33,357 bases of DNA from Bryobacteraceae bacterium. Lineage in GTDB: Bacteria > Acidobacteriota > Terriglobia > Bryobacterales > Bryobacteraceae. The translations under genes were made by a program, and so were the position numbers. The stretch lies in NCBI GenBank assembly GCA_030041985.1, contig JASIAM010000063.1:1-33357 (forward strand), read 5' to 3'. This document shows, in pieces, positions 3,832 through 21,701 of this stretch. The notes under the pieces are model-generated. The model was not told where the DNA came from, ran no database searches, and saw only the letters and a list, made by a program, of their open reading frames with translations. The first letter of the stretch is position 1, and each line of letters starts with the position of its first letter.

Positions 3832-5649
3832 TTATTTCATCTCCTCGATTACTTGCTTCAATTCTGCCGGCATTTCCGTAATCGGCACTCTCTCCAGTTG
3901 CATCTCTCCATCGGAGCCTTGCCGGATTACGATATTAAACTTGGCCGCTTCCGGGTCCTTCTCGGGAAAATCCTCGCGGAAGTGCGCGCCCCGGCTCTCC
4001 TTCCGTTCGAGAGCCGCGCGCGCGACCGCTTCCGAAACTGTCAGCAGGTTCTGCAAATCCAGGGCCGTATGCCAGCCATTGTTGAATTCGCGGTTGCCGT
4101 AAACGCCCACTTTGGCAGCGCGCTCGCGCAGCTTCCCGATGCCTTCGAGCGCCTTCCGCATTTCCTGATCATTGCGTACAATGCCCACTTCGTCCTGCAT
4201 CATACTCTGCAACTCGTGCTGGATCTGATAGGGATTCTCGGCTCCACTTTGCTGGCGATCAAAGGGCATTAGCGCTTCCCGCGCGGCCCTCTCCACCTGG
4301 CCCGAATCGGAGCGCACATCGCCGTGCTCTTTAGCGAAGCAGGCTGCGTAGAGGCCGGCGCGCCGGCCGAACACCAGCAGATCGGAAAGCGAATTGCCGC
4401 CCAGGCGGTTAGCACCGTGCAAGCCCGCCGCGCATTCCCCCGCAGCAAACAGGCCTGGAACCGTGGACATCTGCGTTTCGGCATCTACCTTCACCCCGCC
4501 CATCACGTAGTGCGTCGTGGGGCCGATCTCCATCGGCTCTTTGGTGATGTCGATATCGGCAAGCTGCTTGAACTGCTGATACATGGTTGGCAGTTTGCGC
4601 TTGATGTACTCTTCCGCATTGGGCACTTTTTCTTTGATCCAGGCAATATCCAGGAACACACCGCCGTGCGGGCTGCCGCGGCCGGCCTTGATCTCCCGTA
4701 CAATACAGCGCGCCACGTGGTCGCGGGTTAGCAATTCCGGCGGACGGCGCGCATTCTTGTCGCCCTGCGTATAACGCCAGCCTTCTTCCGGATCGTCAGC
4801 CGTCTGGCTGCGATAGTTCTCGGGAATGTCATCGAACATGAAACGGCGCCCCTCTCTGTTGCGTAACACGCCGCCGTCGCCGCGTATCCCTTCGGTCACG
4901 AGAATGCCTTGCACGCTTGGCGGCCAGATCATCCCTGTGGGGTGGAACTGCACGAATTCCATGTCCAGAAGCGCAGCGCCCGCATGATAAGCCAACGAAT
5001 GACCATCGCCGGTGTACTCCCAACTGTTGCTGGTGACGCGGAACGCGCGGCCGATGCCGCCGGTGGACAGCACCACGGCTTTGGCGGGAAACAAGAGGAA
5101 GCGGCCGCGTTCGCGATCGTAGCCGAACGCTCCCGCTACGCGCCCGCCATCGAGCAGCAGGGTGAGCACAGTGGTCTCCATGTGCACTTCCATGCCTTGA
5201 TGGATCCCGTGGTCCTGGAGCGTGCGGATGATTTCCAGACCCGTGCGATCTCCCACGTGCGCCAGGCGCGGATAGCGATGCCCGCCGAAATTGCGCTGCA
5301 GAATGCGGCCTTCGGGCGTGCGGTCGAATACCGCACCCCAGGCTTCCAGTTCGCGCACCCGGTCAGGCGCCTCTTTGGCATGCAGTTCCGCCATGCGCCA
5401 GTTATTCAGGTACTGCCCGCCGCGCATAGTGTCGGAGAAATGGACTCTCCAATTATCGCGGTCGTCCACGTTGGCCAGCGCCGCCGCCACGCCGCCTTCC
5501 GCCATTACAGTGTGCGCCTTGCCCAACAGCGATTTGGTGATAACGCCTACGCGTGCGCCATCGGCCGAAGCCTTGATAGCCGCGCTCAACCCCGAGCCGC
5601 CAGCCCCAATCACCAGCACATCGTAGGCATGTGTCTGATATTCGACCAT
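3832..5649 (-). CDS. sdhA: Succinate dehydrogenase flavoprotein subunit
   Basis: A 605-residue flavoprotein that oxidises succinate to fumarate on the cytoplasmic side of complex II. The N-terminal dinucleotide-binding motif is GAGGSG (15-20). The covalent FAD histidine is H46 in KAHTVMAEGG. Further family blocks are EFVQFHPTG, REGRRFM and, near the C-terminal end of the FAD domain, GLFAAGECA with HGANRLGGNSL. The start is the ATG at 5649, which overlaps the sdhC stop as TGATG and has GGAG nine bases upstream; a longer TTG start at 5664 is less likely. It is translationally coupled to sdhC and abuts sdhB. The order C-A-B and the subunit sizes resemble mycobacterial Sdh1. Confidence 0.95.
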   Translation of the reverse strand: MVEYQTHAYDVLVIGAGGSGLSAAIKASADGARVGVITKSLLGKAHTVMAEGGVAAALANVDDRDNWRVHFSDTMRGGQYLNNWRMAELHAKEAPDRVRELEAWGAVFDRTPEGRILQRNFGGHRYPRLAHVGDRTGLEIIRTLQDHGIHQGMEVHMETTVLTLLLDGGRVAGAFGYDRERGRFLLFPAKAVVLSTGGIGRAFRVTSNSWEYTGDGHSLAYHAGAALLDMEFVQFHPTGMIWPPSVQGILVTEGIRGDGGVLRNREGRRFMFDDIPENYRSQTADDPEEGWRYTQGDKNARRPPELLTRDHVARCIVREIKAGRGSPHGGVFLDIAWIKEKVPNAEEYIKRKLPTMYQQFKQLADIDITKEPMEIGPTTHYVMGGVKVDAETQMSTVPGLFAAGECAAGLHGANRLGGNSLSDLLVFGRRAGLYAACFAKEHGDVRSDSGQVERAAREALMPFDRQQSGAENPYQIQHELQSMMQDEVGIVRNDQEMRKALEGIGKLRERAAKVGVYGNREFNNGWHTALDLQNLLTVSEAVARAALERKESRGAHFREDFPEKDPEAAKFNIVIRQGSDGEMQLERVPITEMPAELKQVIEEMK

Positions 5650-7159: not shown

Positions 7160-8329
7160 CTACCTGACCGCTGCGGTCGCAACCGCGGCAGAATCCTTCA
7201 GGGCCTGGGCCTTGTCAGTTTTTTCCCAGGTGAAGGTTTCTTCGTTGCGGCCGAAGTGACCGAAGGCGGCTGTGTTGCGGTAGATAGGCCGGCGGAGATT
7301 CAAGGCTTCAATGATGCCGCGGGGCGTAAGTTTGAAATTATGGCGGACCAGTTCCGTGAACCGGCTGTCCGGAATTGCGCCCGTGCCAAACGTGTCCACC
7401 GTCACCGACACCGGCTCGGCGACGCCGATGGCGTACGCCAGTTGGACTTCGCAGCGGGAAGCGAGTCCGGCGGCCACCAGATTCTTAGCGATATAGCGGG
7501 CTATGTAGCACGCCGAACGGTCCACTTTCGTGGGATCCTTGCCGCATAGGGCTCCACCGCCGTGCCGGCCCATACCGCCGTAAGTATCCACAATAATCTT
7601 GCGGCCGGTCAAGCCGGTGTCGCCGTGCGGCCCGCCCACTACGAAACGCCCCGTGGGATTGATGTGGTACTTAGTTTGCGAATCCACCATGCCCGAAGGA
7701 ATCACCGGGTCAATGATGTGCTTCTTCACTTGGCGGCGCAATTCCTCAGTGCTGATTTCGGGAGCGTGTTGCGTGGAAATGACCACGGCTTCAATGCGCT
7801 TGGGCTTGTTGTTCACGTATTCCACCGACACCTGGCTTTTGCCATCGGGACGGAGAAATTCGAGGATGCCCTGGCGGCGCGCTTCCGAAAGACGCCGGAC
7901 CAGTTTATGCGCCATCTCGATCGGCAGAGGCATGAGTTCCGGGGTCTCATCGCAGGCATAGCCGAACATCATGCCCTGGTCGCCAGCGCCGCCGGTGTCC
8001 ACGCCCATAGCGATGTCCGGCGACTGCGTCTGGAGCAGGTTGTGCACGCCACAAGTGTGGCAATCATACCCGTAGCTGGCGTCGTTGTAGCCGACATATT
8101 CAATAGTCCCGCGGGCCACGCGCGGAATATCCAGGTGCGCTGTGGTGGTGACCTCACCGGCCACGATACACGTGCCGGTCGTCACCAGCGTCTCGCAACC
8201 TACGCGACCCATCGGATCCTCCGCCATTACGGCGTCGAGCACGGCATCGGAAATCTGATCGGCCATTTTGTCCGGATGACCTTCAGTAACCGACTCCGAT
8301 GTAAAAAGAAATTTCTGCGTTTCTGCCAC
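7160..8329 (-). CDS. metK: S-adenosylmethionine synthetase
   Basis: A 389-residue protein making SAM from methionine and ATP in the cytoplasm. Signatures are the N-terminal [11 protein letters not shown] (ATP/metal site, H18 and D20), [12 protein letters not shown], and the phosphate-binding segment [19 protein letters not shown] followed by the KVDRSAAY-like block [16 protein letters not shown]. The length is normal for the family. The start is GTG at 8329, supported by an exact AGGAGG five bases upstream. It lies 29 bases downstream of ahcY on the same strand, so the two form an operon that regenerates SAM: AhcY removes the SAH produced by methyltransferases and MetK makes new SAM. Confidence 0.96.
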
Positions 8330-8334
8330 TTTAT

Positions 8335-8340
8335 CCTCCT
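8335..8340 (-). promoter_or_regulatory. Strong Shine-Dalgarno for metK GTG start
   Basis: AGGAGG on the minus strand, five bases before the GTG at 8329-8327. It fixes the non-ATG start. Confidence 0.75.
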
Positions 8341-8358
8341 AGGGGATCTTTCTAACAC

Positions 8359-9786
8359 TTAGTATCTGTAATGGTCCGCCTTGTACGGCCCTTCCACCGG
8401 CACTCCCAAATAATCGGCCTGCCTCTTCGTTAGCGTGGTGAGCTTAACGCCGATTTTCTCCAGATGCAACCGCGCCACCTCTTCGTCGAGCCTCTTAGGC
8501 AGCGTGTACACTCCGGGCTTGTAGGTGTCGCGGTTCTTCCACAGATCGATCTGCGCCAGCGTCTGGTTGGAAAAGCTGTTGCTCATGACGAAGCTGGGGT
8601 GGCCGGTGGCGCAACCCAGATTCACCAGGCGTCCCTCGGCCAGAATGAAAATGCTATGGCCGCCGGAGAAAGTATACATATCCACCTGCGGTTTGATGTT
8701 GGTCTTCTTGGCGCCGGAAGTGTTCAGCGCGTCCATCTGGATTTCGTTATCGAAGTGACCGATGTTGCACACAATCGCCTGATCCTTCATGTGCTGCATA
8801 TGTTCGAGCGTGATAATATCCACATTGCCGGTGCAGGTCACGTAGATGTCGCCACGCCCCAGGGTGTCTTCCAGGGTAGTGACTTCGAAGCCTTCCATGG
8901 CGGCCTGCAGCGCGTTGATCGGATCGATTTCCGTAACTACCACGCGCGCGCCCATGCCCCGCAGCGAATGCGCCGAGCCCTTGCCCACATCGCCATAGCC
9001 GCAAACCACGCAGACTTTGCCAGCCACCATTACGTCCGTCGCGCGCTTGATGCCGTCGGCCAGCGATTCGCGGCAGCCATATAGGTTGTCGAATTTGGAT
9101 TTGGTTACCGAGTCATTCACATTGATCGCCGGAACCAGTAATGAGCCGGCCTCCTGCATCTTATATAACCGGTGCACACCGGTAGTGGTCTCTTCGGAAA
9201 CGCCGCGCCAATCCTTCACGATTTCATGCCAGCGGCGCGGGTTCTGGTTGAAAACATGCTTCAACAGGTTCTTGATCACCGTCTCTTCGTGGCTGTCGGA
9301 CCGGCTGTTCACCCAATCGCTGCCATTTTCGAGCTCACATCCCTTGTGCACCAGCAGCGTGGCGTCTCCGCCATCATCCACGATCAGTTGCGGGCCTTTG
9401 CCATCCGGATGGCTGATGGCCTGATAGGTGCACCACCAGTATTCTTCGAGAGATTCGCCCTTCCAGGCAAACACCGGTATACCGGCCGCGGCAATCGCCG
9501 CCGCAGCGTGATCCTGCGTGGAAAAAATGTTGCAGCTTGCCCAACGCACCGAAGCGCCCAGGTCCGCCAGCGTCTCGATCAGCACCGCGGTCTGGATGGT
9601 CATGTGCAGCGAACCCGTAACGCGCACCCCGGCCAGCGGACGCTCCTTGGCGTATTTGCGCCGGATCGACATGAGCCCCGGCATTTCGAATTCGGCAATC
9701 GAGATCTCTTTGCGGCCCCAATCGGCCAGCGCGAGGTCGGCTACTTTGTAATCGGTTGCGGTTTGATTCAGCGTTGCAGTACCCAT
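8359..9786 (-). CDS. ahcY: S-adenosylhomocysteine hydrolase
   Basis: A 475-residue NAD-dependent enzyme that splits SAH to homocysteine and adenosine. Visible hallmarks are [18 protein letters not shown] near the N-terminus, [15 protein letters not shown], the Rossmann motif GYGDVG (263-268) inside [15 protein letters not shown], and the C-terminal KADHYRY that completes the NAD site. The start is the ATG at 9786, with GAGGAG five to six bases upstream; the frame extends upstream to 9864 but that stretch is AT-rich promoter DNA. First gene of ahcY-metK, divergent from an ArsR-methyltransferase gene across only 68 bases, which suggests a shared control region. Confidence 0.96.
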
Positions 9787-9799
9787 GCGATCTCCTCGT

Positions 9800-9845
9800 C
9801 TATAAACTATCGTATCTATAAATCTTGATAGGATGATATTATAAT
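9800..9845. promoter_or_regulatory. Divergent promoter/operator between ahcY and ArsR-methyltransferase gene
   Basis: This AT-rich stretch holds a perfect TATAAT at 9840-9845 for the rightward gene, placing transcription start at about 9852 and its ATG at 9855, so the mRNA would be nearly leaderless. Upstream lie an inverted repeat TATC (9813-9816) and GATA (9827-9830), further TATC (9808-9811) and GATA (9835-9838) half-sites, and a direct repeat CTATAAA (9800-9806 and 9816-9822). It is a plausible operator for the adjacent regulator. Confidence 0.5.
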
Positions 9846-9854
9846 AAAACAACC

Positions 9855-10802
9855 ATGGCGTCAATCCTGAAAACGTTGCGCCTGGCTTCCGACCCGAACC
9901 GCCTGCGCCTCCTGTTGCTGCTCGAGCAGGAAGAACTGTCCGTAAACGAACTGCAAGAAATCCTGGGCAAGGGCCAGAGCCAGATTTCCACCAATCTTTC
10001 GCAGCTCAAACAAGCGGGAATGGTGGATGACCGCCGCACAGGAAAAAACGCATTCTACCGCCTGAACGTTCCCTCCGCGCTAATGGATCTGCTGCGGGAG
10101 GGTGCGCGCGAAGTTCCGGAGGCCGCGCGGGACCGCGATGCCCTCCGCTTGGTGTTGCGCAAACGCAACGATAAAATGCGCCGCTATTTCGACGAACTCG
10201 CCGGCCGCTTCGGGCGCGAATACGTCCCTGGACGCTCCTGGAAAGGCATCGCGGAAGCGCTCCTGAAGATGCTTCCACCCATGGTGATTGCCGACCTGGG
10301 AGCGGGCGAAGGAACCATCGCGCAGCTCATGGCGCAGCGCGCCCGGAAAGTGATTGCCATTGATAATTCGGAGAAAATGGTGGAATTCGGAAGCGAACTG
10401 GCGCGCCGCCACGGGATTGGCAATCTGGAATACCGGCTGGGCGACCTGGAAGAGGTGCCCATCCGCAGCGGCACAGTGGACTTGGCCTTCCTCAGCCAGG
10501 CGCTGCACCACGCGCGCCATCCCGAGCGCGCGGTCTCCGAGGCTTGGCGGATCCTCAAGCCGGGCGGGCGTATCACGATCCTCGATTTGAACCGGCACCA
10601 CTTCGAACAAGCGCGGGAACTCTACGCCGACCTTTGGCTGGGCTTTACCGAGCTGGAGCTGGAACAGCAGTTACGCGCCGCCGGATTTCAAAACCTGGAA
10701 ACGGCCATTGTTCACCGCGAGAGCGAGCCGCCGCATTTCGAGACTATGCTGGCGGTGGGGGAGAAACCGGCGGCACTGCTCCACAAGCCAGACGCTGCTT
10801 GA
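9855..10802 (+). CDS. ArsR-type HTH fused to SAM-dependent methyltransferase domain
   Basis: A 315-residue two-domain protein. Residues about 1-85 form an ArsR winged helix ([21 protein letters not shown], then a recognition helix around [17 protein letters not shown]). Residues about 128-270 are a class I methyltransferase: motif I DLGAGEG (147-153), acidic D170 in [32 protein letters not shown] and [12 protein letters not shown]. The same architecture is known for SAH/SAM-sensing ArsR regulators such as proteobacterial SahR, which control methionine-cycle genes. The divergent placement against ahcY-metK makes regulation by SAH or SAM the leading interpretation. Catalytic methylation cannot be excluded. 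No ribosome site precedes the ATG, in keeping with a near-leaderless transcript. Confidence 0.85.
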
Positions 10803-10806
10803 TGAC

Positions 10807-11610
10807 TTACGCCGGCGCCGCTTCCACCAGGCTGCTGGTTTCTGAGATAGTTTCCAGACGCTCGGCCAACTCGGCGATCTGGTCCGGATACCGCGAATCG
10901 GGCACACGCAAATCCAACATCACGCGCGATCCCTCGCCGCCCGATGAAGCCGCTAGCACGATCACCCGGGTCCCCATGCGCAGGGCCTCGTGCGTGTTGT
11001 GGGTGACAAACAGGATGGTGGTTCCGGTGGCTTGCCACAGCGAACGAATCAGCCGCTGCATCTCTTTGCGCGTGCCCGGATCGAGCGCGCTGAAGGCTTC
11101 GTCCATAAGCAGAATGCGCGGCTCGCTCATCAATGCCTGCGCGATCGCTACGCGTTGCTGCATGCCGCCGGAAAGCTGGTCGGGATATTTGGAGCCGTCA
11201 GCCTCGGATAACCCGATGCGCCGCAGGTAATCGAGCGCCTCCCGCCGCAATTCGCGCCGGCGCTTGCGAAACTCCGGCATCCAACGCCGCCACAATCCAA
11301 ACTCACTTACCTCGGGCCCGAAGGTGATGTTATCGAGCACCGTTTTATCGGGGAACAGTGAATACTTCTGCGGCACGTAACCGCGCGAGCGATCGGGCCG
11401 GCGATGCTCGCGGCCGTCAATCAGGATGCGTCCATCCACCGGCTGCTCCGAGCCGAGCAGCAAACGCAACAGGGTGGATTTGCCGCAGCCGGTCTGCCCC
11501 AGCACGCATACGAACTCGCCTTCTTCGATCGACAAATCGATGCCGTTGAGCACCGTCCGTGGAGGCGCCCCGTAGGACATCGAAACGTGATCGATTTCAA
11601 TTAATGGCAT
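10807..11610 (-). CDS. ABC transporter ATPase, urea carboxylase/guanidine-associated type
   Basis: A 267-residue nucleotide-binding subunit of the nitrate/taurine importer group. It shows Walker A GQTGCGKST (38-46), Q-loop Q81, signature LSGGMQQR (146-153), Walker B ILLMDEAFSALD (166-177), and the switch histidine in LFVTHNTHEA. It has a long arginine-rich insertion around 108-125. It is the third gene of the minus-strand set (binding protein, permease, ATPase; gaps of 6 and 20 bases). It powers import of the substrate captured by the binding protein at 12492-13544. The gene converges with the ArsR-methyltransferase gene, with four bases between stops. Confidence 0.9.
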   Translation of the reverse strand: MPLIEIDHVSMSYGAPPRTVLNGIDLSIEEGEFVCVLGQTGCGKSTLLRLLLGSEQPVDGRILIDGREHRRPDRSRGYVPQKYSLFPDKTVLDNITFGPEVSEFGLWRRWMPEFRKRRRELRREALDYLRRIGLSEADGSKYPDQLSGGMQQRVAIAQALMSEPRILLMDEAFSALDPGTRKEMQRLIRSLWQATGTTILFVTHNTHEALRMGTRVIVLAASSGGEGSRVMLDLRVPDSRYPDQIAELAERLETISETSSLVEAAPA

Positions 11611-11630
11611 GGCGACTCACTCCCGGAGCA

Positions 11631-12485
11631 TCATTCGTGAAACCACGGGTGGAGTTTGCGGTTGGCAAAACGCATCCCCCAATCCACCACAAACAGCAGC
11701 AGCGCAACCCACAGCACGTAAGGGACGATCACATCCATTCCCATATGGCGCCGCAGCAGTGCGATGCGGTATGCGAGACCGTCCGTAGAGGCGATCATCT
11801 CGCCCGCAAACAGGAACAGCATGACCGCCTTGAGGTTCAATCGGATGCTGTTGAGAACGCGCGGCAGGATCTGCTTCAGCACCACGCGGTACGCCACATC
11901 GAAATCCCCGGCTCCCAGCGTGAACGCTTTGACGATCTGCTCGGGGGGCACTCCGCGGGTCAGGTTGAAGGTGTCCAGAATGACCGTAGGCGCCACTCCG
12001 ATTACGATCAGCATGATCTTGGATAGCTCATCGATGCCAAACGCGATGAACAAAATGGGCAGCAGCGATAGGGCCACGATTTTGTCAAAGAACAAAATGA
12101 AACGCAGAAAAAAGACGCCCACGTAGGGGAACAGGCCCATGTGGAGGCCCAAAAGCACCGCCGGAATCAGCAGCAGCATGCTGTAGAGGAAACGCCGCGA
12201 GCTTGCCTTAGTGTCTTTCCACAACATGCTATGCGGAAAATCCTGCCAGAAATTGCCGGTCTCCGTTTGGACTTCATCATCTTCGGCGGGGTGCAGCGCC
12301 GCACTATACATGCCGCGGGCCATCTGCTCGATGGTCGGCATCACGCGGTCCTCGGGATTGTCGCGATGGCGGGCATGCGACACGTAAAAATAGAGCGCAA
12401 TTCCACAAGCGAACAAGGCCCAGGAGAGGATGAGCGTTGCAGCGCGGTTCGGCTTGGCGTGGACTGACAATACCCCGGCAGACAT
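11631..12485 (-). CDS. ABC transporter permease, urea carboxylase/guanidine-associated type
   Basis: A 284-residue inner-membrane protein of the BPD_transp_1 (SsuC/TauC-like) family. An N-terminal membrane segment (about 16-36) is followed by a hydrophilic loop containing NPEDRVMPTIEQMARGMY and WKDTKASSRRFLYSM, both of which I recognise from permeases encoded beside urea carboxylase. Further membrane segments lie at about 100-135, 140-170 and 215-270. The coupling-helix region is VLDTFNLTRGVPPEQIVKAFTLGA with the EAA-like GAGDFDVAYRVVLKQILP. It forms the channel for the substrate delivered by the neighbouring binding protein. It starts six bases after the binding protein gene; no clear ribosome site is seen, which fits translational coupling. 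Confidence 0.88.
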   Translation of the reverse strand: MSAGVLSVHAKPNRAATLILSWALFACGIALYFYVSHARHRDNPEDRVMPTIEQMARGMYSAALHPAEDDEVQTETGNFWQDFPHSMLWKDTKASSRRFLYSMLLLIPAVLLGLHMGLFPYVGVFFLRFILFFDKIVALSLLPILFIAFGIDELSKIMLIVIGVAPTVILDTFNLTRGVPPEQIVKAFTLGAGDFDVAYRVVLKQILPRVLNSIRLNLKAVMLFLFAGEMIASTDGLAYRIALLRRHMGMDVIVPYVLWVALLLFVVDWGMRFANRKLHPWFHE

Positions 12486-12491
12486 GAGCTT

Positions 12492-13544
12492 TTACAGTTT
12501 TCCTTCCGCTGCCATCTGCATGAATGCCAGGTCGAACGCAAAACGCACGCGATCCGCCTTACCTTGAATTGCGCCATCGGGATAGCGGATGGCGACATCG
12601 TCCACCGATTTCGTATTCTCGCCGAGCAGCCCGTGATCAAAACAGAACTGCCGCACCAGGGCCATTTTTTGCTTGATATCCGGAGAAGCCGCAAATGCCG
12701 CGGCGGATTGCGGCGTGTAGAACATTTTGGTGGTGCCGAGTTGCTCCTTGTAAGAAGCCAGCGTGTCCTCGGAACCTTCAGCGATCGCGGCCAGCACTTT
12801 GTCCGCGCCAGGCCCGGTCATCATGGCCATCATCTCGTACCAGGCTCCAGCCAGTGCCTGGGCGAACTTGCGGCCGGAGCCATCGGGCCGGTTGAGGACA
12901 TCGGTGCGCACCACGGTGAGATCCAGGATTTCTCCGGGAATCCGGGAGGAATTAAAAAGCGAAGTAATGCCCTTCTGTTTTGAAATCTGAGAGACCATCG
13001 GCTTCCAGGTGACCACGGCGGAAGTGCTGGTGTCGCTCAGAAAAGCGATGGCAATATCGGAATCCGAGGTATTGATCATGCGCACCTGTTTGAGTTGACT
13101 GCGCAGGCCCTCGATGGTCATGGCGCGATCGAACAGATACTCGGAGACGGTCTTCTGTACCAGCAGCATCTTTTTGCCGGCCAAGTCCTTCATCTGCAGA
13201 CCATTGCGCACCAGCAGAGCGTCATTCCCGTTGGAGTAATCGCCGATCAGAATGGCCGTGGTCGGAACGCCCGATGCGGCGGGCATATCCAAAGCCTCCA
13301 TGTTGGTCATGGTGACGGCCTCGATATTGCGTGCTACGAAGGCATCGAGTGAAGGCGCATAGTCGAAGCGCTGTACCTTAATCGTGATGCCATACTTGTC
13401 GGCCCACTTCTTGAGCAGACCGGATTTGTTCATGTAAAAGTACGGAGTCCAGCCGGCGTAGATCGACCAGCCCACAGTAAAGGCCGGCTGGCCGGCAAAG
13501 GCAGAAACGGAGAAAAGCGCAAAAAAAGCGAGAAGTTTTCGCAT
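12492..13544 (-). CDS. ABC transporter substrate-binding protein, TIGR03427-like (guanidine/urea-type)
   Basis: A 350-residue periplasmic binding protein with a signal peptide MRKLLAFFALFSVSAFAG. The mature start FTVGWSIYAGWTPYFYM, then LLKKWADKYGI, VTMTNMEALDMPAASGV and ILIGDYSNGNDALLVR match the periplasmic binding family named for its location beside urea carboxylase (TIGR03427). Those carboxylases are now known to act on guanidine, so guanidine is the best substrate guess; nothing in the sequence proves it. The start is the ATG at 13544 with AGGA upstream; the frame extends back to 13691 through the divergent promoter, which I reject as coding. First gene of the importer set, divergent from a BlaI-like gene. 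Confidence 0.85.
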   Translation of the reverse strand: MRKLLAFFALFSVSAFAGQPAFTVGWSIYAGWTPYFYMNKSGLLKKWADKYGITIKVQRFDYAPSLDAFVARNIEAVTMTNMEALDMPAASGVPTTAILIGDYSNGNDALLVRNGLQMKDLAGKKMLLVQKTVSEYLFDRAMTIEGLRSQLKQVRMINTSDSDIAIAFLSDTSTSAVVTWKPMVSQISKQKGITSLFNSSRIPGEILDLTVVRTDVLNRPDGSGRKFAQALAGAWYEMMAMMTGPGADKVLAAIAEGSEDTLASYKEQLGTTKMFYTPQSAAAFAASPDIKQKMALVRQFCFDHGLLGENTKSVDDVAIRYPDGAIQGKADRVRFAFDLAFMQMAAEGKL

Positions 13545-13653
13545 CGTCGTCCTGGGGCGGGCTGCATAGACCGGAATGGCGACGAGGCCGAAAAGGTGAG
13601 TGTAGCACACCATCTGCCGCGGCCCGGCCAAATTGCGAAAACTCCAAAAACTC

Positions 13654-13683
13654 TTGCAACGTAGAAAAACATCGTTGTATAGT
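13654..13683 (+). promoter_or_regulatory. Promoter with inverted repeat upstream of the BlaI-like gene
   Basis: TTGCAA (13654-13659) and TATAGT (13678-13683) form a sigma70-like promoter with an 18-base spacer. CAACG (13657-13661) and CGTTG (13673-13677) make a perfect five-base inverted repeat in the spacer, where a dimeric repressor would block polymerase. The predicted transcription start (about 13690) lies next to the ATG at 13692, so the message looks leaderless. Confidence 0.5.
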
Positions 13684-13691
13684 AGATGCAA

Positions 13692-14069
13692 ATGAAGTTG
13701 CCGAAGCTCACCGCATTGGAACTCCAGATCATGGAGGCACTCTGGAATCAGCGGCGGCTCTCCATTCGGGAAGTCCAGGAGACTTTTCCGGAGCCGGGAC
13801 GTCCCGCATATACGACAATCCAGAGCACCGTTTACCGGCTAGAAGAGAAGGGCGCGGTCCGGCGTGTGAGGAAAATTGGCAACGCACATATCTTTGAAGC
13901 AGTGGTGTCCCGGCGCGATGCGAGCGGCCGCTTGATCGACGATCTGTTGAGTCTTTTCGGCGGCCGGACCCAACCAGTCATGGCTCACTTGGCGGAATCG
14001 GGCAAGCTTACGCTCGACGATATTCGCGAGGCCGAAAAGCTGATCCGGGATCTCCACCGAAAGAAATGA
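13692..14069 (+). CDS. BlaI/MecI/CopY family transcriptional repressor
   Basis: A winged-helix protein of 125 residues (127 if the ATG at 13686 is used). It begins MKLPKLTALELQIMEALW, the usual start of this family, then RLSIREVQETFP and the recognition region AYTTIQSTVYRLEEKGAVRR. The C-terminal half, with RLIDDLLSLFGG and a closing helix LTLDDIREAEKLIRDL, is the dimerisation part. Such repressors are inactivated by proteolysis triggered by a BlaR1-type membrane protease, which is the next gene (13 bases downstream). I chose the second ATG because the first lies upstream of the predicted transcription start; no ribosome site precedes either. The operator is probably the inverted repeat in its own promoter. 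Confidence 0.9.
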   Translation: MKLPKLTALELQIMEALWNQRRLSIREVQETFPEPGRPAYTTIQSTVYRLEEKGAVRRVRKIGNAHIFEAVVSRRDASGRLIDDLLSLFGGRTQPVMAHLAESGKLTLDDIREAEKLIRDLHRKK

Positions 14070-14082
14070 AGGACGCAAGCTC

Positions 14083-15756
14083 ATGAACCACCTGCTCAAT
14101 CACCTCTGGCAATCCACGGTTTTCGCGGCGGCTGTCGCGTTGGCCACAATGGCGTTCGAGCGCAACGCGGCGCGGGTGCGCTACTGGCTTTGGCTCGCGG
14201 CCTCGCTCAAGTTCCTGGTTCCGTTTTCTGTGCTGGTCAGCGTGGGCGGAGAGGCCGCAAGACCAACTGCAGCGCCTGTTTTCCCAGCTCTCACTGTAAT
14301 GCAGGTCTCCACTTACTTCGCTCCTGCTCCCACTTTCCCCGCGATAACGCCGGCAGCGGCGCACTCGTATTGGCGCATCATGATTGCCGCTATTTGGGCG
14401 GCAGGAGCGCTTCTCTTGTTATTCCGTTGGCGCCGCCGTTGGCGTGCGATCCGAAATGCTGCTCGAAACGCAAGGCCTTTGCTGATAAATTCCTCACTGC
14501 CGGCTTTCTCGTCGCGTTCCACAATCGAGCCGGGAGTTTTCGGCCTCTTCCGTCCTATCCTCCTATTGCCGGAGGGACTTGCCGGCAGCCTCACACCGGA
14601 ACAATTGCAGGCGATTCTATCCCATGAGCTGTGCCATGTGCGCTACCGCGACAATCTCACGGCCGCTCTGCACATGTGTGTCGAAACCCTATTTTGGTTC
14701 CATCCTATCGTGTGGTGGATCGGGGCCAAGCTGGTGGAGGAGCGCGAGCGCGCCTGCGATGAGAACGTTCTCAACCGCGGGAGCCAGCCGGCCGATTACG
14801 CAGAGGGAATCGTCAATGTCTGCAAGACCTACCTTGCGTCGCCGCTCCCGTGTGTCTCGGGCATCACGGGCGCCAGTCTGAAGAAGCGAATTCGCGAGAT
14901 CATGACGTGGCGCGGTACGCTTCACCTGACCTTCATGCGCAAGTCGATGCTGGCAATGGCGGGCACTCTGGCCGTGGCTGTGCCCCTGGGCATTGGACTG
15001 ATTCGCGCTCAAACTCTTCCGCCGCCTCCGGCTTACACGTATGAGGTGGTTTCCATCCACAAATCGAGCCCTGGGCAGAGGGGCGTGTGGTTTGGGCCGG
15101 GCCCCGGCGGCGGCATTCGTACCCAAAACACTAGCGCGATGGACTTGTTAACTTGGGCCTACAAGGTCCGCGATTACCAAATCGCCGGGGCGCCCGCTTG
15201 GGTGAAATCCGACCGGTTCGACGTGAGCTTTACGCCGGATAAAACGGAGGCTCCTCCCAGTCCCGGAACCGCGCCGAAAGAGATCGAGACACTCATAGGC
15301 AGAGAGCAGCAGCGAATGCAAGCCGTCTTGCGCGACCGCTTTGGCCTCGTACTCCGGGCCGAGATGCACGAGTTGCCCATTTATGCCCTGGTTCCGGCCA
15401 AAGGCGGGCTGAAGCTCACTTCGTCAGCGCAACCCAAGGAAGGGCCACATCTCCGAGCGGGCCTCGGACGGGTCGAGGGCGGCAGCGTGACACTCCGGAT
15501 GCTCGCCGACCATCTTTCAGCGGTGCTTGGCCGCCCGGTCACGGATGAAACCGGCACTGACAAGCAGTATGATTTCAAGCTCGAATACAAGCCGGAAACA
15601 GCGGTTCCGGGGGGGCCGGAAGAAACGCCGTCTCCATCCGACGCTCCATCAATCTTCACCGCACTGACCGAGCAACTCGGGCTGCGCCTCGAACCCCGAA
15701 AGGGTCCTGTGCAGGTATATGTGATCGAGAAGATCGAAAAACCAGCGGAAAACTGA
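14083..15756 (+). CDS. BlaR1-type M56 membrane peptidase with C-terminal TIGR03435 domain
   Basis: A 557-residue membrane protein. Hydrophobic segments at about 8-25, 35-53, 97-113 and 288-306 frame a cytoplasmic M56 peptidase with zinc motif HELCH (181-185) and a downstream RERACDE (221-227) that supplies the third ligand. The last membrane segment is followed by a proline stretch and a roughly 240-residue exported domain (about 318-557) starting YEVVSIHKSSP and containing MQAVLRDRFGLVLRAEMHELPIYALV and the closing LRLEPRKGPVQVYVIEKIEKP. That matches the TIGR03435 family of soil Acidobacteria. This domain replaces the penicillin-binding sensor of BlaR1, so the signal is probably not a beta-lactam. 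GAAGGA precedes the ATG. Its likely target is the BlaI-like repressor just upstream. Confidence 0.88.
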   Translation: MNHLLNHLWQSTVFAAAVALATMAFERNAARVRYWLWLAASLKFLVPFSVLVSVGGEAARPTAAPVFPALTVMQVSTYFAPAPTFPAITPAAAHSYWRIMIAAIWAAGALLLLFRWRRRWRAIRNAARNARPLLINSSLPAFSSRSTIEPGVFGLFRPILLLPEGLAGSLTPEQLQAILSHELCHVRYRDNLTAALHMCVETLFWFHPIVWWIGAKLVEERERACDENVLNRGSQPADYAEGIVNVCKTYLASPLPCVSGITGASLKKRIREIMTWRGTLHLTFMRKSMLAMAGTLAVAVPLGIGLIRAQTLPPPPAYTYEVVSIHKSSPGQRGVWFGPGPGGGIRTQNTSAMDLLTWAYKVRDYQIAGAPAWVKSDRFDVSFTPDKTEAPPSPGTAPKEIETLIGREQQRMQAVLRDRFGLVLRAEMHELPIYALVPAKGGLKLTSSAQPKEGPHLRAGLGRVEGGSVTLRMLADHLSAVLGRPVTDETGTDKQYDFKLEYKPETAVPGGPEETPSPSDAPSIFTALTEQLGLRLEPRKGPVQVYVIEKIEKPAEN

Positions 15757-15762
15757 GCCCGT

Positions 15763-15800
15763 AAAAAGGGTCACCCCGCGGTCTCGTCCCGCCCCTTTTT
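15763..15800 (+). terminator. Probable intrinsic terminator after the M56 gene
   Basis: AAAAAGGG (15763-15770) pairs with CCCTTTTT (15793-15800) around a 22-base GC-rich loop, so the descending arm ends in five T. It follows the stop codon at 15756 closely and would separate the BlaI/M56 unit from the ureohydrolase gene. Confidence 0.5.
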
Positions 15801-15922
15801 CGAGCCGTAGAAATTGGGCCTGATGGTGGGAACGTGGTCTTCTGTCAGTTTCTCCCTACGGAATTATTCCAGATTGTACAGGACGAGAACTCTGCGCTAA
15901 GCTCCATATTTACGGAAAATCC

Positions 15923-17071
15923 ATGGCCTTCTACAAAACCCACGCACCGAAGCACCGCGAACACCAGAGAGAATTATTGTTGCCGGAACTCGAGGGCATG
16001 AAAGCCCTCCGCGATGAAGCAGCTATTCCCTCGCGCCAATGGCAGGAAGAAGTCCGGCGCGGCAAAGAGTGGGGCCTCGAGTGTGTAGATTCGATACAGG
16101 ACAAAGCCGAGATCAGTTGCTTCCAGCGCGGTGAGCTGCCGCATTGGTCCGGCATCAACACCTTCCTGAAAACCCACTATTTGGAAGATATCCGGCGCGT
16201 TGGGGAGTATGACGTGGCTTTCCTGGGAGTCCCGTTCGATATCGCGACCACCTACCGCGCGGGAACGCGCTTCGGCCCGCAAGGTATCCGGCGCATATCG
16301 TCCCTCTACACCACTTACAACTTCGAGCTGGGCGTGGATCTGCGCGAGTCACTGAAAATGTGCGACGCGGGCGATGTCTTCTGCCCCGCCAATATCACCA
16401 AGAGCCACGATCAAATATCGAAAGCCGTGGCGCACGTCTTGTCCGAAGGCACGTTGCCCATGATTATGGGCGGCGATCACTCGATCGGCTATCCATGCGT
16501 GCGCGGAGTGGCGCAGTGTATCGAAGGCAAGGTCGGTATCATTCACCTGGACCGTCACATCGATACCCAGGAAAAAGATATGGACGAAATTATGCACACC
16601 TGCCCCTGGTTTCATGCCACCAATATTCCCAACTGCCCGCCCACCAACCTGGTGCAAGTGGGAATCGGAGGCTGGCAGGTACCGCGGCCGGGAGTGAAAA
16701 AGGGCCGGGAGCGGGGATCGACCGTGCTCACGATCCAGGATATCGAGCGGATCGGAATCGAGAAGACGGTAGAGATTGCGCTCGAGGTTGCCTGGAAGGG
16801 CGCGAGCGCAGTCTATCTTTCCTTCGATATCGATTCGGTGGATGCGGGATTTGTCCCTGGCACCGGCTGGCCGGAACCGGGAGGTTTTCTGCCCCGCGAA
16901 GCTCTGGCGATTCTGAAAGGCGTTGCCAAAGAGGGAATCGTCGCCATGGAGGCAGTGGAGGTGTCGCCTCCTTACGATATTTCCGATATCACGGCGCTCC
17001 TGGCGGTGCGCGCCCTGGTCGATGTCCTGGCCACAATGGTCAAGCATGGGAGAATCGGCGGGAAACTGTAA
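15923..17071 (+). CDS. Ureohydrolase family protein, probable guanidine hydrolase (agmatinase-like)
   Basis: A 382-residue member of the arginase/agmatinase fold, hydrolysing a guanidino group to release urea or ammonia. All six metal ligands are present: H186 (GGDHS), D210, H212 and D214 (LDRHIDTQ), D302 and D304 (FDIDSVD). It differs from ordinary agmatinases in an N-terminal extension of about 90 residues, in DRHID instead of DAHxD, and in the blocks YRAGTRFGPQGIRRISSLY, GVDLRESLKMCDAGDVF and GTGWPEPGGFLPREAL. These fit my recollection of cyanobacterial Ni-dependent guanidine hydrolase (GdmH, Sll1077; about 390 residues). The nearby importer supports this. Agmatinase or another ureohydrolase remains possible. 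The 3' end overlaps the chelatase fusion gene by 26 bases. Confidence 0.85.
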   Translation: MAFYKTHAPKHREHQRELLLPELEGMKALRDEAAIPSRQWQEEVRRGKEWGLECVDSIQDKAEISCFQRGELPHWSGINTFLKTHYLEDIRRVGEYDVAFLGVPFDIATTYRAGTRFGPQGIRRISSLYTTYNFELGVDLRESLKMCDAGDVFCPANITKSHDQISKAVAHVLSEGTLPMIMGGDHSIGYPCVRGVAQCIEGKVGIIHLDRHIDTQEKDMDEIMHTCPWFHATNIPNCPPTNLVQVGIGGWQVPRPGVKKGRERGSTVLTIQDIERIGIEKTVEIALEVAWKGASAVYLSFDIDSVDAGFVPGTGWPEPGGFLPREALAILKGVAKEGIVAMEAVEVSPPYDISDITALLAVRALVDVLATMVKHGRIGGKL

Positions 17072-18818
17072 AACTGCCTTTCTGCTCGCGGCGGATCTTC
17101 AACCGCATGAAGCGGCCTGGCGGGACTGGGAGGGTTACGCGCAAAGGGCGGCGGCCGCCAGCGCGCCTCTACTGGGCTTCATGCCGCAAGTGCGCGCCGC
17201 CGCGCTGGATGAAACTCTCTACCAATCGCTGGCCGCGATAGCCACCGAGGATTTTGCGGAGATCCTGGTTCTTCCGGTGGCGCAGGATTTGAATCTGCTC
17301 GAGCGCGAAATGCTGGGGCGAGTGCTGGCGGAAGCCCGGCGCGCTCATCCTGCCATAGCGATTCATCATGATGATATCGACCCGGGCGATCCGCTGCTGG
17401 TCGAATTTTTTGCCGCCCGCCTGGGACAAACGCTCGAACAGCATGGCCTCATTGCGCAGCGCACCGGCTTGATCCTGGCGGCCAGCGGCAAAGGCGATGC
17501 TGCGAGCCGCGCACAGAGCTACCGGTTTCTGCGCCTCTTGTGGGAACGCGCGGGCCTAGCGGCCGGCGAGATCGGCTTCGTGCGCCACGAGCAGCCGTTT
17601 CTCCTCCGAACCTTCGAGCGCTGTGCCAAATACAATCTCCCGTGGATCGTTGTCCCGCACATGCTTTGGAAGTCCGAGTATTTCTGCTATGCCGAAGTGA
17701 TCCTGGAAAATTTCCGCAAAGATCACGCGCCCGCTGCAGGGTGGCCCATGGCCGCGCCCCCCAAAGATAATCCCGGCATGACAGCATGGCTGGCGCGGCG
17801 CATGACGCAACTGTGGCGGGACAAGCGCCGCCGCGAACTAGCGCGGCAGGCCTCCCCCAAGCGAGCCGCTCCGCCGCCCGCATCCACGTACGTGGTGGGC
17901 AGCGGGACAATCGCAGCGGTCACGAGCAAATCCGAGATGGCGAAGCTGCTGCATGATTTGTGGGGCGGGCAACATCACGGCCGGGTCTTCATAAAAGTTA
18001 CCTGGCACGGCTACGCCACCGGGACCTATACCGATCCGGCCGCGCTCGACCTGCTGTTGGGAGCGCTGCCCACGCCGGCGGTCGTGCTCGAAGGCCACAC
18101 CAGCAGCCGCAATTTAGGCGGCGCCGCATTTGATTGGGAAACACAGGCCCGGGAAAATCGGGCCTGGATTCGCCAGCAGGAGGCCGAATACCTGCGCCGA
18201 ACGGGCCTGGCGGAGGTGCTCGCACGTCACAGCGCCCAATATGTGAACATCACGGAATCCTACTGGGATGACGCTTGCGTTCGGCCGGAAGATGTCTGCC
18301 GCGTGCTCGAACAACGGGGAGTGAAATTGCTTTATCCGCAGCTTGCGCACTTCATTCCGCAAATTCTATGGGAACATGCCGGCTGTCCCCTGATCAGCTT
18401 CGCGAAATTCAAAGGCGCCACGCGACTTACTATATCGAACATGTTTGGGCTGCTACCTGAACCTCTGCGCGCGGCCTGGCATGGTCCCAATATCACCTAC
18501 ATGGCGCGCGTCTGCTGTGACCTTATCAAGTTATACGGCGTCCTGTTTCCGCTGTTTGGCATCGCCGAAGCGCTGTACACCGCGATCCGATGGGACCGGC
18601 GCGGTCTGTATCGTAGCCGTTGGGGGAATTACGACCTGATCGAAAACGCCGGTTATGTTACGGCAAGCCGCGGGTTGGTAACCGCCGACATTCTGGCGAG
18701 CCGCCTGCAGGGTCAGGATGTGAATCGCAGTGCGTTTTTCGATGTGGTCAGAAGCGAGTTAGGCTGGGACGAGGCAGCCGCGAACGCGCCCCTGCCGCTG
18801 ACGGTGCTCGCATCATAA
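17046..18818 (+). CDS. CbiX-like chelatase domain fused to DUF362 domain
   Basis: A 590-residue cytoplasmic protein. Residues about 9-265 resemble a two-repeat CbiX/SirB-type chelatase: FAEILVLPVAQDLNLLEREM and RAHPAIAIHHDDIDPGDPLLVEFF in the first half, then GLILAASGKGDAASRAQSYRF, RLLWERAGL and LPWIVVPHMLW in the second. The usual GHGS metal-binding motif is replaced by AADLQPH; H107, H108, H181 and H205 remain as candidate ligands. A Pro/Ala-rich linker (270-280) leads to a DUF362-like domain (about 310-575): VFIKVTWHG, VVLEGHTSSRN, LISFAKFKGATRLTISNMFGLLP. The ATG at 17046 overlaps the ureohydrolase by 26 bases, implying coupled translation. A metal-insertion role for that enzyme is inference. 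The longer upstream open frame is a shadow of the ureohydrolase. Confidence 0.75.
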   Translation: MGESAGNCKTAFLLAADLQPHEAAWRDWEGYAQRAAAASAPLLGFMPQVRAAALDETLYQSLAAIATEDFAEILVLPVAQDLNLLEREMLGRVLAEARRAHPAIAIHHDDIDPGDPLLVEFFAARLGQTLEQHGLIAQRTGLILAASGKGDAASRAQSYRFLRLLWERAGLAAGEIGFVRHEQPFLLRTFERCAKYNLPWIVVPHMLWKSEYFCYAEVILENFRKDHAPAAGWPMAAPPKDNPGMTAWLARRMTQLWRDKRRRELARQASPKRAAPPPASTYVVGSGTIAAVTSKSEMAKLLHDLWGGQHHGRVFIKVTWHGYATGTYTDPAALDLLLGALPTPAVVLEGHTSSRNLGGAAFDWETQARENRAWIRQQEAEYLRRTGLAEVLARHSAQYVNITESYWDDACVRPEDVCRVLEQRGVKLLYPQLAHFIPQILWEHAGCPLISFAKFKGATRLTISNMFGLLPEPLRAAWHGPNITYMARVCCDLIKLYGVLFPLFGIAEALYTAIRWDRRGLYRSRWGNYDLIENAGYVTASRGLVTADILASRLQGQDVNRSAFFDVVRSELGWDEAAANAPLPLTVLAS

Positions 18819-18844
18819 CTTCCCCACTGAAAACGCGTCTGTCT

Positions 18845-19498
18845 TTACGCAGTTTCGAGGACTGGTTGTGCCAGTAGCCCTTTCTCTTTCAGGCCGGATA
18901 GAGCAAGACCATAACGACCGTGGATACCGGTCTTCTCAAAGATATGCTTCAGGTGGATCTTGACCGTACCTGTCTGTATGCCGAGAGCTTTGGCAATATC
19001 TTTGTTCTTCATGCCCCGCTCCACCAATTCCCGCACCTGCAGCTCGCGCGCCGTTAGCGCGCACCGCGTGCCCGCCGCACGCTCCCAGCCGCGAGTTACT
19101 TCCTGCTCCATCCAGGTGGCGCCCGACGCTACCGAGCGAAGGCATTGGATTAAAGTCGATAATGGTGCCGTCTTGCGCACAATTCCGGCACATCCCGCCT
19201 GCAAAAAGCGAACCGATTCGGCTTCCGACAACGCGGCGCCCCAAACCACGGCCGATGTGGAGATGTCCGCTTCCCGCAACTCCCGCAAGCAGTCCATCAC
19301 GCCTTGAATGCCGTACGCCTTATCTACCAGCAGCACCGATGGCGCTAAGGCGCGCGTCGCCTCCATCGCCTCGGGCAGAGAACTCTCTGCGGCCACGACA
19401 TTAAAGTCGTCCGCCGGTTCCAGCACTTTGCGTAAGCCCTCAATAGCAACGGGTTCCGTGTCACAAATTACGAGTGTATGCACCAATTCACCATCCAC
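18845..19498 (-). CDS. NarL/LuxR-family response regulator (orphan)
   Basis: A 217-residue protein with an N-terminal receiver domain and C-terminal LuxR helix-turn-helix. In the receiver, D13 contributes to the acidic pocket, D59 in SVLLVDK is the probable phosphorylation site, and K109 in GIVRKTAP is the conserved lysine. The second acidic residue next to D13 is absent (CDTEP), so phosphorylation may be weak or atypical. The HTH spans about 147-207 (LTARELQVRELVERGMKNKDIA, then TVKIHLKHIFEKTGI). The start is a GTG at 19498 without a strong ribosome site, so the exact start is uncertain. No histidine kinase is adjacent. It converges with the chelatase-DUF362 gene 26 bases away. Confidence 0.88.
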   Translation of the reverse strand: MDGELVHTLVICDTEPVAIEGLRKVLEPADDFNVVAAESSLPEAMEATRALAPSVLLVDKAYGIQGVMDCLRELREADISTSAVVWGAALSEAESVRFLQAGCAGIVRKTAPLSTLIQCLRSVASGATWMEQEVTRGWERAAGTRCALTARELQVRELVERGMKNKDIAKALGIQTGTVKIHLKHIFEKTGIHGRYGLALSGLKEKGLLAQPVLETA

Positions 19499-20837: not shown

Positions 20838-21701
20838 TCACGCCGCCGGCCGCTGGCTGCCCTTGATCTGCGTCCGGTGCAGGATACGCCGGAATGCCGG
20901 CTCAAAAGCATCCCGGCGATGCATGGTGGAACGATTGTCCCACAGCACGAGATCGCCAACCTGCCATTGGTGGCCCCACACCCATTCCGGCCGCGTAGCA
21001 TGTGACCAGATCTCATCCAGCAGGCTTTCGGATTCCGCCAGCGGCAGACCGCTAATCAACGCGTTGCGGCGCCGCCCGAGATACAGCACCCGGCGTCCCG
21101 TTTCGGGATGAATGGGCGCGAGAGGATGGTACACGCCCGGAGACTCCACAGGATCATCGACAGCCGTTAGACCCTGCCGAACATATCCGCCACTGTTGTA
21201 AGTGGCATCGTGCTTGACAGTGAGCCCGGCGGCCTGCATCTTGAGGGCGTCCGGCAAGCTTTCGTAAGCCTGAACCATGTTGCAGAAATACGTATTCCCG
21301 CCCGCGGCAGGCACCTCCAGAGCGTACAGGATGCTTGCCTTGGGCGGAGTTTCGAGATACGACATATCGGTGTGCCAGACGGCTTCCCCCGCGCCCAGGC
21401 TGCCGATCGGCACTCCATTCTCCACCACGTTGGAAACCACGTAAATCTCCGGATGCCCTTCAACGAAGCGGCGCCCCGTTTCCTGCACCGGCGCCCAATC
21501 GAGATCGCCGAAGCGCCTGCTGAACCGGATCAGATCCGCATCCGTCAGGTGCTGCCCGCGAAACAGCAGAACCAGATGATCGAGCCACGCGCGGTGCACC
21601 GCGGTGAACTCCTCATCGCTTAGATTTCTCAGGTCCACTCCAAGAACTTCGGCAGCGAGAGCCTCTCCCGTGGGCACGATTGTCATATTCCTATTAAACA
21701 C
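20838..21701 (-). CDS. TauD/TfdA family Fe(II)/2-oxoglutarate dioxygenase
   Basis: A 287-residue cytoplasmic oxygenase. The iron ligands are H110 and D112 (VWHTDMSY) and H261 (NRSTMHRRDAF), and R272 or R276 (FRRILHRTQI) would hold 2-oxoglutarate. The N-terminal segment TGEALAAEVLGVDLRNLSDEEF and LLFRGQHLTDADLIRFSRRFG are typical of the TauD/TfdA group. The substrate cannot be read from sequence; taurine, sulfonates and aryloxyacids are used by relatives. No sulfonate transporter is adjacent. The start is uncertain: GTG at 21701 or ATG at 21686 (AGGA only two bases away). Confidence 0.88.
   Translation of the reverse strand: MFNRNMTIVPTGEALAAEVLGVDLRNLSDEEFTAVHRAWLDHLVLLFRGQHLTDADLIRFSRRFGDLDWAPVQETGRRFVEGHPEIYVVSNVVENGVPIGSLGAGEAVWHTDMSYLETPPKASILYALEVPAAGGNTYFCNMVQAYESLPDALKMQAAGLTVKHDATYNSGGYVRQGLTAVDDPVESPGVYHPLAPIHPETGRRVLYLGRRRNALISGLPLAESESLLDEIWSHATRPEWVWGHQWQVGDLVLWDNRSTMHRRDAFEPAFRRILHRTQIKGSQRPAA

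Follow-up and report, generated by a model that had tools for sequence, protein, structure and literature searches.

A probable guanidine uptake and hydrolysis locus in a Bryobacteraceae bacterium, with a chelatase-fold gene that may serve nickel handling

The window analysed here is a stretch of 33,357 nucleotides from a Bryobacteraceae bacterium (contig JASIAM010000063.1 of assembly GCA_030041985.1, positions 1 to 33,357). It carries a gene for a predicted guanidine hydrolase (gdmH), a predicted ATP-binding cassette (ABC) importer on the opposite strand, a BlaI/M56 gene pair between the two, and an open reading frame, ORF7, which follows gdmH and whose product joins a metal-chelatase fold to a second domain (Table 1). 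An earlier note, made from the sequence alone, had proposed positions 10807-18818 as a candidate guanidine uptake-and-hydrolysis locus of an acidobacterium. These coordinates hold, although the note overlooked ORF7, the gene whose end is 18818. Its importer at 10807-13544 is indeed a minus-strand set of ATPase, permease and TIGR03427 binding protein, and the genes for BlaI, M56 and the ureohydrolase all lie on the plus strand, as described. An acidobacterial host is likewise plausible: the nearest gdmH relatives are metagenome-assembled genomes (MAGs) of Terriglobia, among the best 80 of 565 confirmed gdmH stretches, and the M56-DUF3738 protein beside BlaI carries the TIGR03435 'Soli' domain. 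In scans of 28 different window ORFs against Pfam, and of part of those against NCBIfam, no urease, urea carboxylase, allophanate hydrolase or arginine decarboxylase was named, in keeping with the note's statement that the window has none.

Table 1. Features of the locus (positions in the window)
Feature	Position	Strand	Basis
ABC importer ATPase	10807-11610	-	ABC_tran 117.7 bits; 63% / 68% identity to L003 / L004 ATPases near gdmH
ABC importer permease	11631-12485	-	BPD_transp_1 44.8 bits; 74% identity to L004 permease near gdmH
Periplasmic binding protein	12492-13544	-	TIGR03427 471.0 bits (cut-off 333.9); 69% / 66% identity to L003 / L004
BlaI-type repressor, probably bystander	13686-14069	+	Penicillinase_R 86.7 bits
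M56 peptidase fused to DUF3738, probably bystander	14083-15756	+	Peptidase_M56 107.1 bits, DUF3738 171.6 bits
Upstream region of gdmH	15757-15922	+	No known guanidine riboswitch
Predicted guanidine hydrolase (guanidinase, GdmH), 382 residues	15923-17071	+	Solved-chain scores, tree, guanidinase residues
ORF7, 590 residues, proposed nickel-handling partner of GdmH	17046-18818	+	Chelatase fold ~6-262 and C-terminal domain ~280-590

The guanidinase and its importer

When compared with all solved protein chains, the gdmH product scores highest against the guanidinases of Nitrospira inopinata (9fek, 497.6 bits) and Synechocystis (Sll1077, 7esr/7oi1, 492.7 bits), and the next solved family, guanidinobutyrase, follows at 168.5 bits. 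The protein is 60% identical to each of the two characterised guanidinases. The long N-terminal extension that had suggested a Sll1077-like enzyme in the earlier note is present, with the Pfam Arginase domain starting at residue 97 and the alignment to 9fek at residue 24. Also present are H186, D210, H212, D214, D302 and D304, which we take to be the usual ureohydrolase metal-ligand positions.

Relatives of gdmH were collected from genome records together with flanks of up to 10 kb, some of them shortened by contig ends; because only the best 80 of 565 were kept, this set of loci is skewed to close relatives. A quick tree of 90 rows was built from 81 gdmH sequences (the window's included), the two characterised guanidinases and seven other ureohydrolases, namely an agmatinase, a guanidinobutyrase, a guanidinopropionase, a proclavaminate amidinohydrolase, two solved arginases and the second ureohydrolase of the window's own genome. 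GdmH falls into an 83-row clade (support 100 by the Shimodaira-Hasegawa-like approximate likelihood-ratio test) that includes both characterised guanidinases and excludes all seven others, which stand on long branches. The tree check proposed at the outset has thus put the enzyme among guanidinases and not in an agmatinase or arginase clade. The possibility that the genome encodes another guanidinase or agmatinase was rejected, its sole other ureohydrolase match being an arginase (330.5 bits to 1cev).

Four residues of the N. inopinata enzyme are tied to guanidine use in the excerpted text of its description: Thr105, His222, Trp313 and Glu344 (PMC11410670). They are kept in the window's GdmH as T110, H225, W316 and E346 and are invariant across the alignment; for this mapping we took the chain index of 9fek to run 2 ahead of the paper numbering, because all four residue letters then agree. 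A sequence-based annotation would leave room for a shifted substrate, such that the ureohydrolase acts on another small guanidino compound (methylguanidine or guanidinopropionate, for example) supplied by the importer, and the metformin and dimethylguanidine hydrolases are described, in excerpt, as nickel ureohydrolases with just such a shift (PMC11399263). We regard this as very improbable here, given the level of identity to two characterised guanidinases, the four retained residues, the position within the guanidinase clade and the distance to the nearest other solved ureohydrolase (169 versus 498 bits).

The binding protein of the importer exceeds the curated cut-off of TIGR03427, which NCBIfam names a 'putative urea' binding protein. 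Its start in the ORF list is a TTG at 13691; from the ATG at 13544 the protein begins with an apparent signal peptide, as judged by eye. Among solved structures, sequence comparison turned up a single relative, a taurine-binding protein (E 0.00015). Binding proteins that score at least 250 bits against that of the window are encoded in the flanks of 47 of the 80 gdmH loci, and any match at E 1e-5 is found in 60 of the 80. A guanidine-I riboswitch was detected in 11 of 13 loci that have this importer type and were scanned with Rfam (all Rfam scans at gathering scores), the misses being L003 and L004. These 11 comprise L018, L029, L028 and L034 and seven loci picked for this importer, in all seven of which the riboswitch stands ahead of the importer. 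The L029 binding protein, also of TIGR03427 (509.4 bits), is encoded downstream of its guanidine-I riboswitch.

Gene order in relatives bears out the earlier suggestion that importer and enzyme form one guanidine system. In L004, a Terriglobia MAG, a single strand encodes gdmH, ORF7, a metallo-beta-lactamase-type gene, the binding protein, the permease and the ATPase. In L003 the importer is divergent to gdmH with the same metallo-beta-lactamase-type gene between them and no BlaI/M56 match. In L028 and L034 the importer is again divergent to gdmH, and a separate guanidine-I riboswitch stands at each of the two units. Since the latter two loci show the window's arrangement with the control element present, the pairing in the window is credible despite its two transcription units.

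The importer might instead carry urea, as the family name says, and lie near gdmH by chance; the lack of a riboswitch ahead of the importer in the window, L003 and L004 would suit this explanation. Against it stand the presence of the same binding-protein type behind guanidine-I riboswitches in gdmH operons and the L004 binding protein belonging to one string of genes with gdmH; we rate a urea importer as only slightly less improbable than the shifted substrate discussed above. On sequence grounds, the TIGR03427 protein of the window is very probably a guanidine-binding protein.

Two side observations concern these neighbourhoods. The metallo-beta-lactamase-type gene occurs near the importer or ORF7 in three acidobacterial relatives (L003:8833-9675, L004:9492-10388 and L089:11041-11883). 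Sequence identity to the L004 copy is 64% for L003 and 58% for L089, and a search of the window at E 1e-4 gave no match. In L010 the binding-protein gene ahead of gdmH (4708-5214) seems internally deleted relative to L009.

ORF7, the gene after gdmH

If the ATG at 17046, the start chosen here, is the real start, ORF7 overlaps the end of gdmH by 26 bases, and because of this overlap its product is probably made together with GdmH. Neither Pfam nor NCBIfam gives a match to ORF7 at E 0.001. Its distribution is closely tied to one group of guanidinase genes: the window's gdmH and ten relatives form an 11-row clade (support 100, quick tree) that spans five phyla, Acidobacteriota, Myxococcota, Thermodesulfobacteriota, Latescibacterota and Planctomycetota. 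ORF7 adjoins gdmH in nine of the ten clade relatives versus none of the 70 other loci (Fisher p 4e-11, with related loci treated as independent, as in all Fisher tests here). In the tenth relative, L006, it lies about 35 kb from gdmH, if the contigs concerned, which are equal in length, are taken to be the same one. All 11 clade genomes, including the window's own, thus contain ORF7, as compared with none of three genomes tested outside the clade.

Samples of three phyla agree with this pattern. ORF7 was found in one of 396 genomes, one of 282 and, at full length, one of 392, and all three of these genomes carry this gdmH, although gdmH itself was searched for in the first sample only. The ORF7 profile used on the third sample contained the matching genome's own sequence; four further hits from that search, one of them in the gdmH-bearing genome itself, were weak (42-56 bits) and confined to the chelatase part. 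Two of the 11 clade members have just the N-terminal half of ORF7: in L005 the contig ends there, and in L007 the gene itself does. The L007 gene (11167-12057) encodes a chelatase-fold half of 296 residues beside gdmH and is followed directly by the binding-protein gene, and no second ORF7 match was found in that genome. We conclude that ORF7 goes with one gdmH subclade.

Two features point to transfer of these genes, the mixture of phyla within the gdmH clade and the patchy distribution of gdmH, which at E 1e-80 was found in one of 396 genomes of the phylum sample, with three more acidobacterial records (L003, L004 and L006) also having it. Because the clade consists mostly of MAGs, several with gdmH on short contigs (L005, 3.5 kb; L007, 15.9 kb; L004, 16.1 kb; L009, 17.1 kb), single cases may be binning errors; Singulisphaera sp. 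GP187 (L012) does not bear a MAG label. Foreign base composition was considered as a sign of transfer and discarded: G+C content and third-position G+C (GC3) are 0.582 and 0.705 for gdmH and 0.618 and 0.699 for ORF7, and the rest of the window stands at 0.594, so that both genes resemble their surroundings and composition gives no signal. A plasmid origin was likewise rejected, with gdmH at E 1e-80 or better on 11 plasmid records and an ORF7 match (E 1e-5) on none of them.

The full-length model of ORF7, built from 10 sequences, has a mean predicted local distance difference test score (pLDDT) of 82.1 and a predicted template modelling score (pTM) of 0.55. Its N-terminal residues match the chelatase SirB in Foldseek (5zt7, E 1.6e-9, target template modelling score 0.80), and this half superimposes on the coproporphyrin ferrochelatase CpfC (8aw7) with Z 24.0 and 2.3 Å over 252 residues. 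The fold modelled for the N-terminal half is thus that of class II metal chelatases. With E up to 1 allowed, nine of 10 family members match Pfam CbiX (best 1.2e-13), and the window's own ORF7 reaches 13.0 bits, under the cut-off of 22. Residues D109, R155, R163, R180 and H181 are invariant in all 10.

The metal ligands of SirB are given as His10, Glu43 and His76 in the excerpted text of PMC11301274. With an offset of 12 assumed for the chain numbering, His10 falls outside the printed ORF7 alignment, Glu43 falls on its first column, and the His76 column reads L, W, F, R, T, D, E, W, F and F in the 10 members, with no histidine. Because this ligand is missing, ORF7 is not a canonical sirohydrochlorin chelatase.

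The C-terminal half, when modelled alone from eight sequences, has a pLDDT of 81.9 and a pTM of 0.85. Its best structural comparison, Z 6.1 to a cyclodipeptide synthase, lies within background and is given no weight here. Weak matches to Pfam DUF362 (E up to 10) occur in six of eight ORF7 members (best E 0.0089), the window's own protein giving none at E 10, and a profile comparison by hhalign of the C-terminal half with DUF362 yields a probability of 6.3 and E 0.0059 over 43 columns, as against probabilities of 0.3 and 0.1 for unrelated pairs. A relation to DUF362 is suggestive only. This family shares a Pfam clan with the nickel-pincer LarA family according to an excerpt of PMC11770544, which we treat as a lead and not as evidence.

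Nickel supply to the guanidinase

The position that ORF7 occupies, directly after gdmH, is filled differently in other lineages. In 53 of the 80 loci it holds a member of one small-protein cluster (for example L059:11198-11698), at a median gap of 4 bases. These proteins are for the most part rich in histidine: the first 70 residues include 10 or more histidines in 40 of the 53, and just one in three; two that were scanned with Pfam gave no match. Elsewhere the slot contains the metal importer component CbiM (L015, 11153-11824) or UreD (L034), and the slot gene of L026 clusters with the L034 UreD.

Published work on related enzymes, seen here in excerpt, also directs attention to nickel. The gdmH operon of Synechocystis includes nickel-delivery genes (PMC12186494), the related metformin hydrolase depends on co-expression of HypA/HypB (PMC11399263), and for related ureohydrolases the co-expression of nickel chaperones is important (PMC11399263, PMC11410670). 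In the window's own genome, matches to HypA and HypB above cut-off lie on another contig (C264) and none on the gdmH contig (C20). HypB is above cut-off in five of the 11 clade genomes, including this one, and not in the other six, where incompleteness of the MAGs may explain some of the absences. It is the contents of the slot, the genes of the Synechocystis operon, the dependence of metformin hydrolase and the presence of HypB in only five of the 11 clade genomes that led us to read ORF7 as a nickel handler.

Several observations weigh against this assignment. In fifteen of the 80 loci the slot contains no small protein of that cluster, no ORF7, no CbiM and no UreD-type gene. In a verrucomicrobial MAG (L017, 11140-11928) it is occupied by a creatininase-family gene, L013 (11178-13782) has a metallophosphoesterase-like gene together with an amino acid permease after gdmH, and L014 has a pair of the same clusters there; because such genes occur there, the slot is not reserved for metal genes. 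For the guanidinase of comammox bacteria, the excerpted text of PMC11410670 reports no known nickel chaperone, and HypA and HypB of the window's own genome could load GdmH without ORF7. In the protein itself, the His76 ligand is replaced throughout, and the position of SirB Arg134, which the excerpt gives as histidine in a better nickel-chelating variant (PMC11301274), is S, A, N or D in ORF7 members and never histidine. The C-terminal domain, finally, has no Foldseek match to a solved fold at E 0.001 or better.

These points leave room for a competing explanation of ORF7 alone, in which the enzyme is a guanidinase and ORF7 simply travels with this gdmH and is no metal factor. ORF7 would instead be a regulator, or would bind or enzymatically convert a guanidine-derived or tetrapyrrole-like compound. 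The absence of the SirB histidine from every member fits this, the conserved C-terminal His, Asp, Cys and Arg residues could form a separate active site, and a HypB is available in five of the clade genomes. Less easily accommodated are the mostly histidine-rich, CbiM or UreD occupants of the slot in other lineages, the six clade genomes that show no HypB above cut-off, and L007, which retains just the chelatase-fold half beside gdmH with no other ORF7 match in its genome. Such a non-metal function for ORF7 is a serious possibility that stops a little short of an expectation. The nickel role, for which position, co-occurrence and fold are the basis, we would put forward in a similarly guarded way, at about even odds: ORF7 may handle nickel for GdmH.

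Control, proposed route and known systems

The window gives no Rfam match at gathering score and so no known guanidine riboswitch, and positions 9500-19000, searched additionally at E up to 5, give just two weak, unrelated matches. No class I guanidine riboswitch was found in the window's own genome among the 150 of 225 candidates that were scored. Both absences count against the guanidine route. In the scanned loci the guanidine-I riboswitch is present in 16 of 21 outside the clade (seven of the 21 chosen for their importer) versus none of 11 inside (Fisher p 7e-5). The outside loci that lack it are L014, L017, L023, L027 and L058; little upstream sequence is available for the last two. Inspection by eye of the upstream stretches in the riboswitch-free clade revealed no obvious conserved RNA, and no model was built.

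The BlaI/M56 pair was considered as a regulator of the guanidine system and rejected. A tblastn search of the 80 relative loci at E 1e-5 matched neither gene, which makes a guanidine-specific role unlikely, although BlaI may affect the importer through the divergent upstream region common to both. Two further observations concern more distant genes of the window: genes for an S-adenosylmethionine synthetase, an adenosylhomocysteinase and an ArsR-methyltransferase fusion are grouped at 7160-10802, and a TauD-family dioxygenase at 20838-21701 scores under the taurine dioxygenase cut-off.

Taken together, these observations make it highly probable that the locus is a guanidine uptake and hydrolysis route. 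Guanidine would be imported by the ATP-driven ABC importer and hydrolysed by the nickel-type guanidinase to urea and ammonium, with both the substrate and the nickel dependence inferred for this organism; the earlier note had likewise offered its substrate assignment as an inference, and so it remains. Its proposal that the ureohydrolase provides the route agrees with the placement among guanidinases. The urease that could complete the breakdown of urea is encoded outside the window. A urease alpha gene lies on contig C102 of the same genome, with neighbours that read by eye, from their first residues, as ureB, ureA, ureD and ureF. Urease alpha was found in 10 of 11 genomes tested, L007 being the exception, and in eight of nine in the ORF7-clade subset.

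ORF7 would serve GdmH as a nickel-handling partner, by binding, delivering or inserting Ni2+ and so taking the part that HypA/HypB-like proteins have in Synechocystis. More speculatively, and with less confidence than we give to the nickel role itself, it could stand for an undescribed class of protein metallation factor in which a chelatase fold has been turned from tetrapyrroles to nickel loading, has a second domain without a solved counterpart and has spread between phyla with the guanidinase. As part of the same proposal, the clade would have to sense guanidine in some other way, because the known guanidine riboswitches are lacking.

The enzyme and the importer are new members of known families; their combination with ORF7, without a riboswitch, is new. 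In the open papers searched, neither guanidinase nor guanidine hydrolase was found paired with Acidobacteria, chelatase or histidine-rich proteins, and among the matches listed none pairs guanidinase with CbiX or sirohydrochlorin. The locus would extend the guanidinase and ABC importer route to acidobacteria, probably of soil, and it belongs to a guanidinase lineage whose scanned loci yielded no known guanidine riboswitch. It also bears on how guanidinases acquire nickel: excerpts of the literature describe accessory nickel proteins for the Synechocystis enzyme (PMC12186494) and report none found for that of Nitrospira (PMC11410670). A chelatase-fold gene that travels with one guanidinase subclade across five phyla makes this question testable.

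One close parallel is the sll1077 (gdmH) operon of Synechocystis PCC 6803 which, in its excerpted description, has an ABC importer with an SsuA-family binding protein, a 60% identical guanidinase and urea passing to urease. That operon contains a guanidine-I riboswitch and nickel accessory genes, whereas the window has no known riboswitch, an importer in a separate unit and ORF7 after gdmH. The locus of the N. inopinata guanidinase (9FEK) encodes an equally similar enzyme (60% identity) and, like the window, has no nickel chaperones nearby in the excerpted account (PMC11410670), which places an amino acid-polyamine-organocation (APC) permease behind the riboswitch where the window has an ABC importer and ORF7. 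Alphaproteobacterial operons, such as those of Thioclava (L029) and Bradyrhizobium (L043), share the importer type and gdmH and differ in the guanidine-I riboswitch ahead and in the small, mostly histidine-rich protein, in place of ORF7, after gdmH. With the class II chelatases SirB and CbiX, ORF7 shares the predicted fold of its N-terminal half; it departs from them in lacking the His76 ligand, in the extra C-terminal domain of about 310 residues in full-length members, and in being encoded by a gene that goes with a guanidinase.

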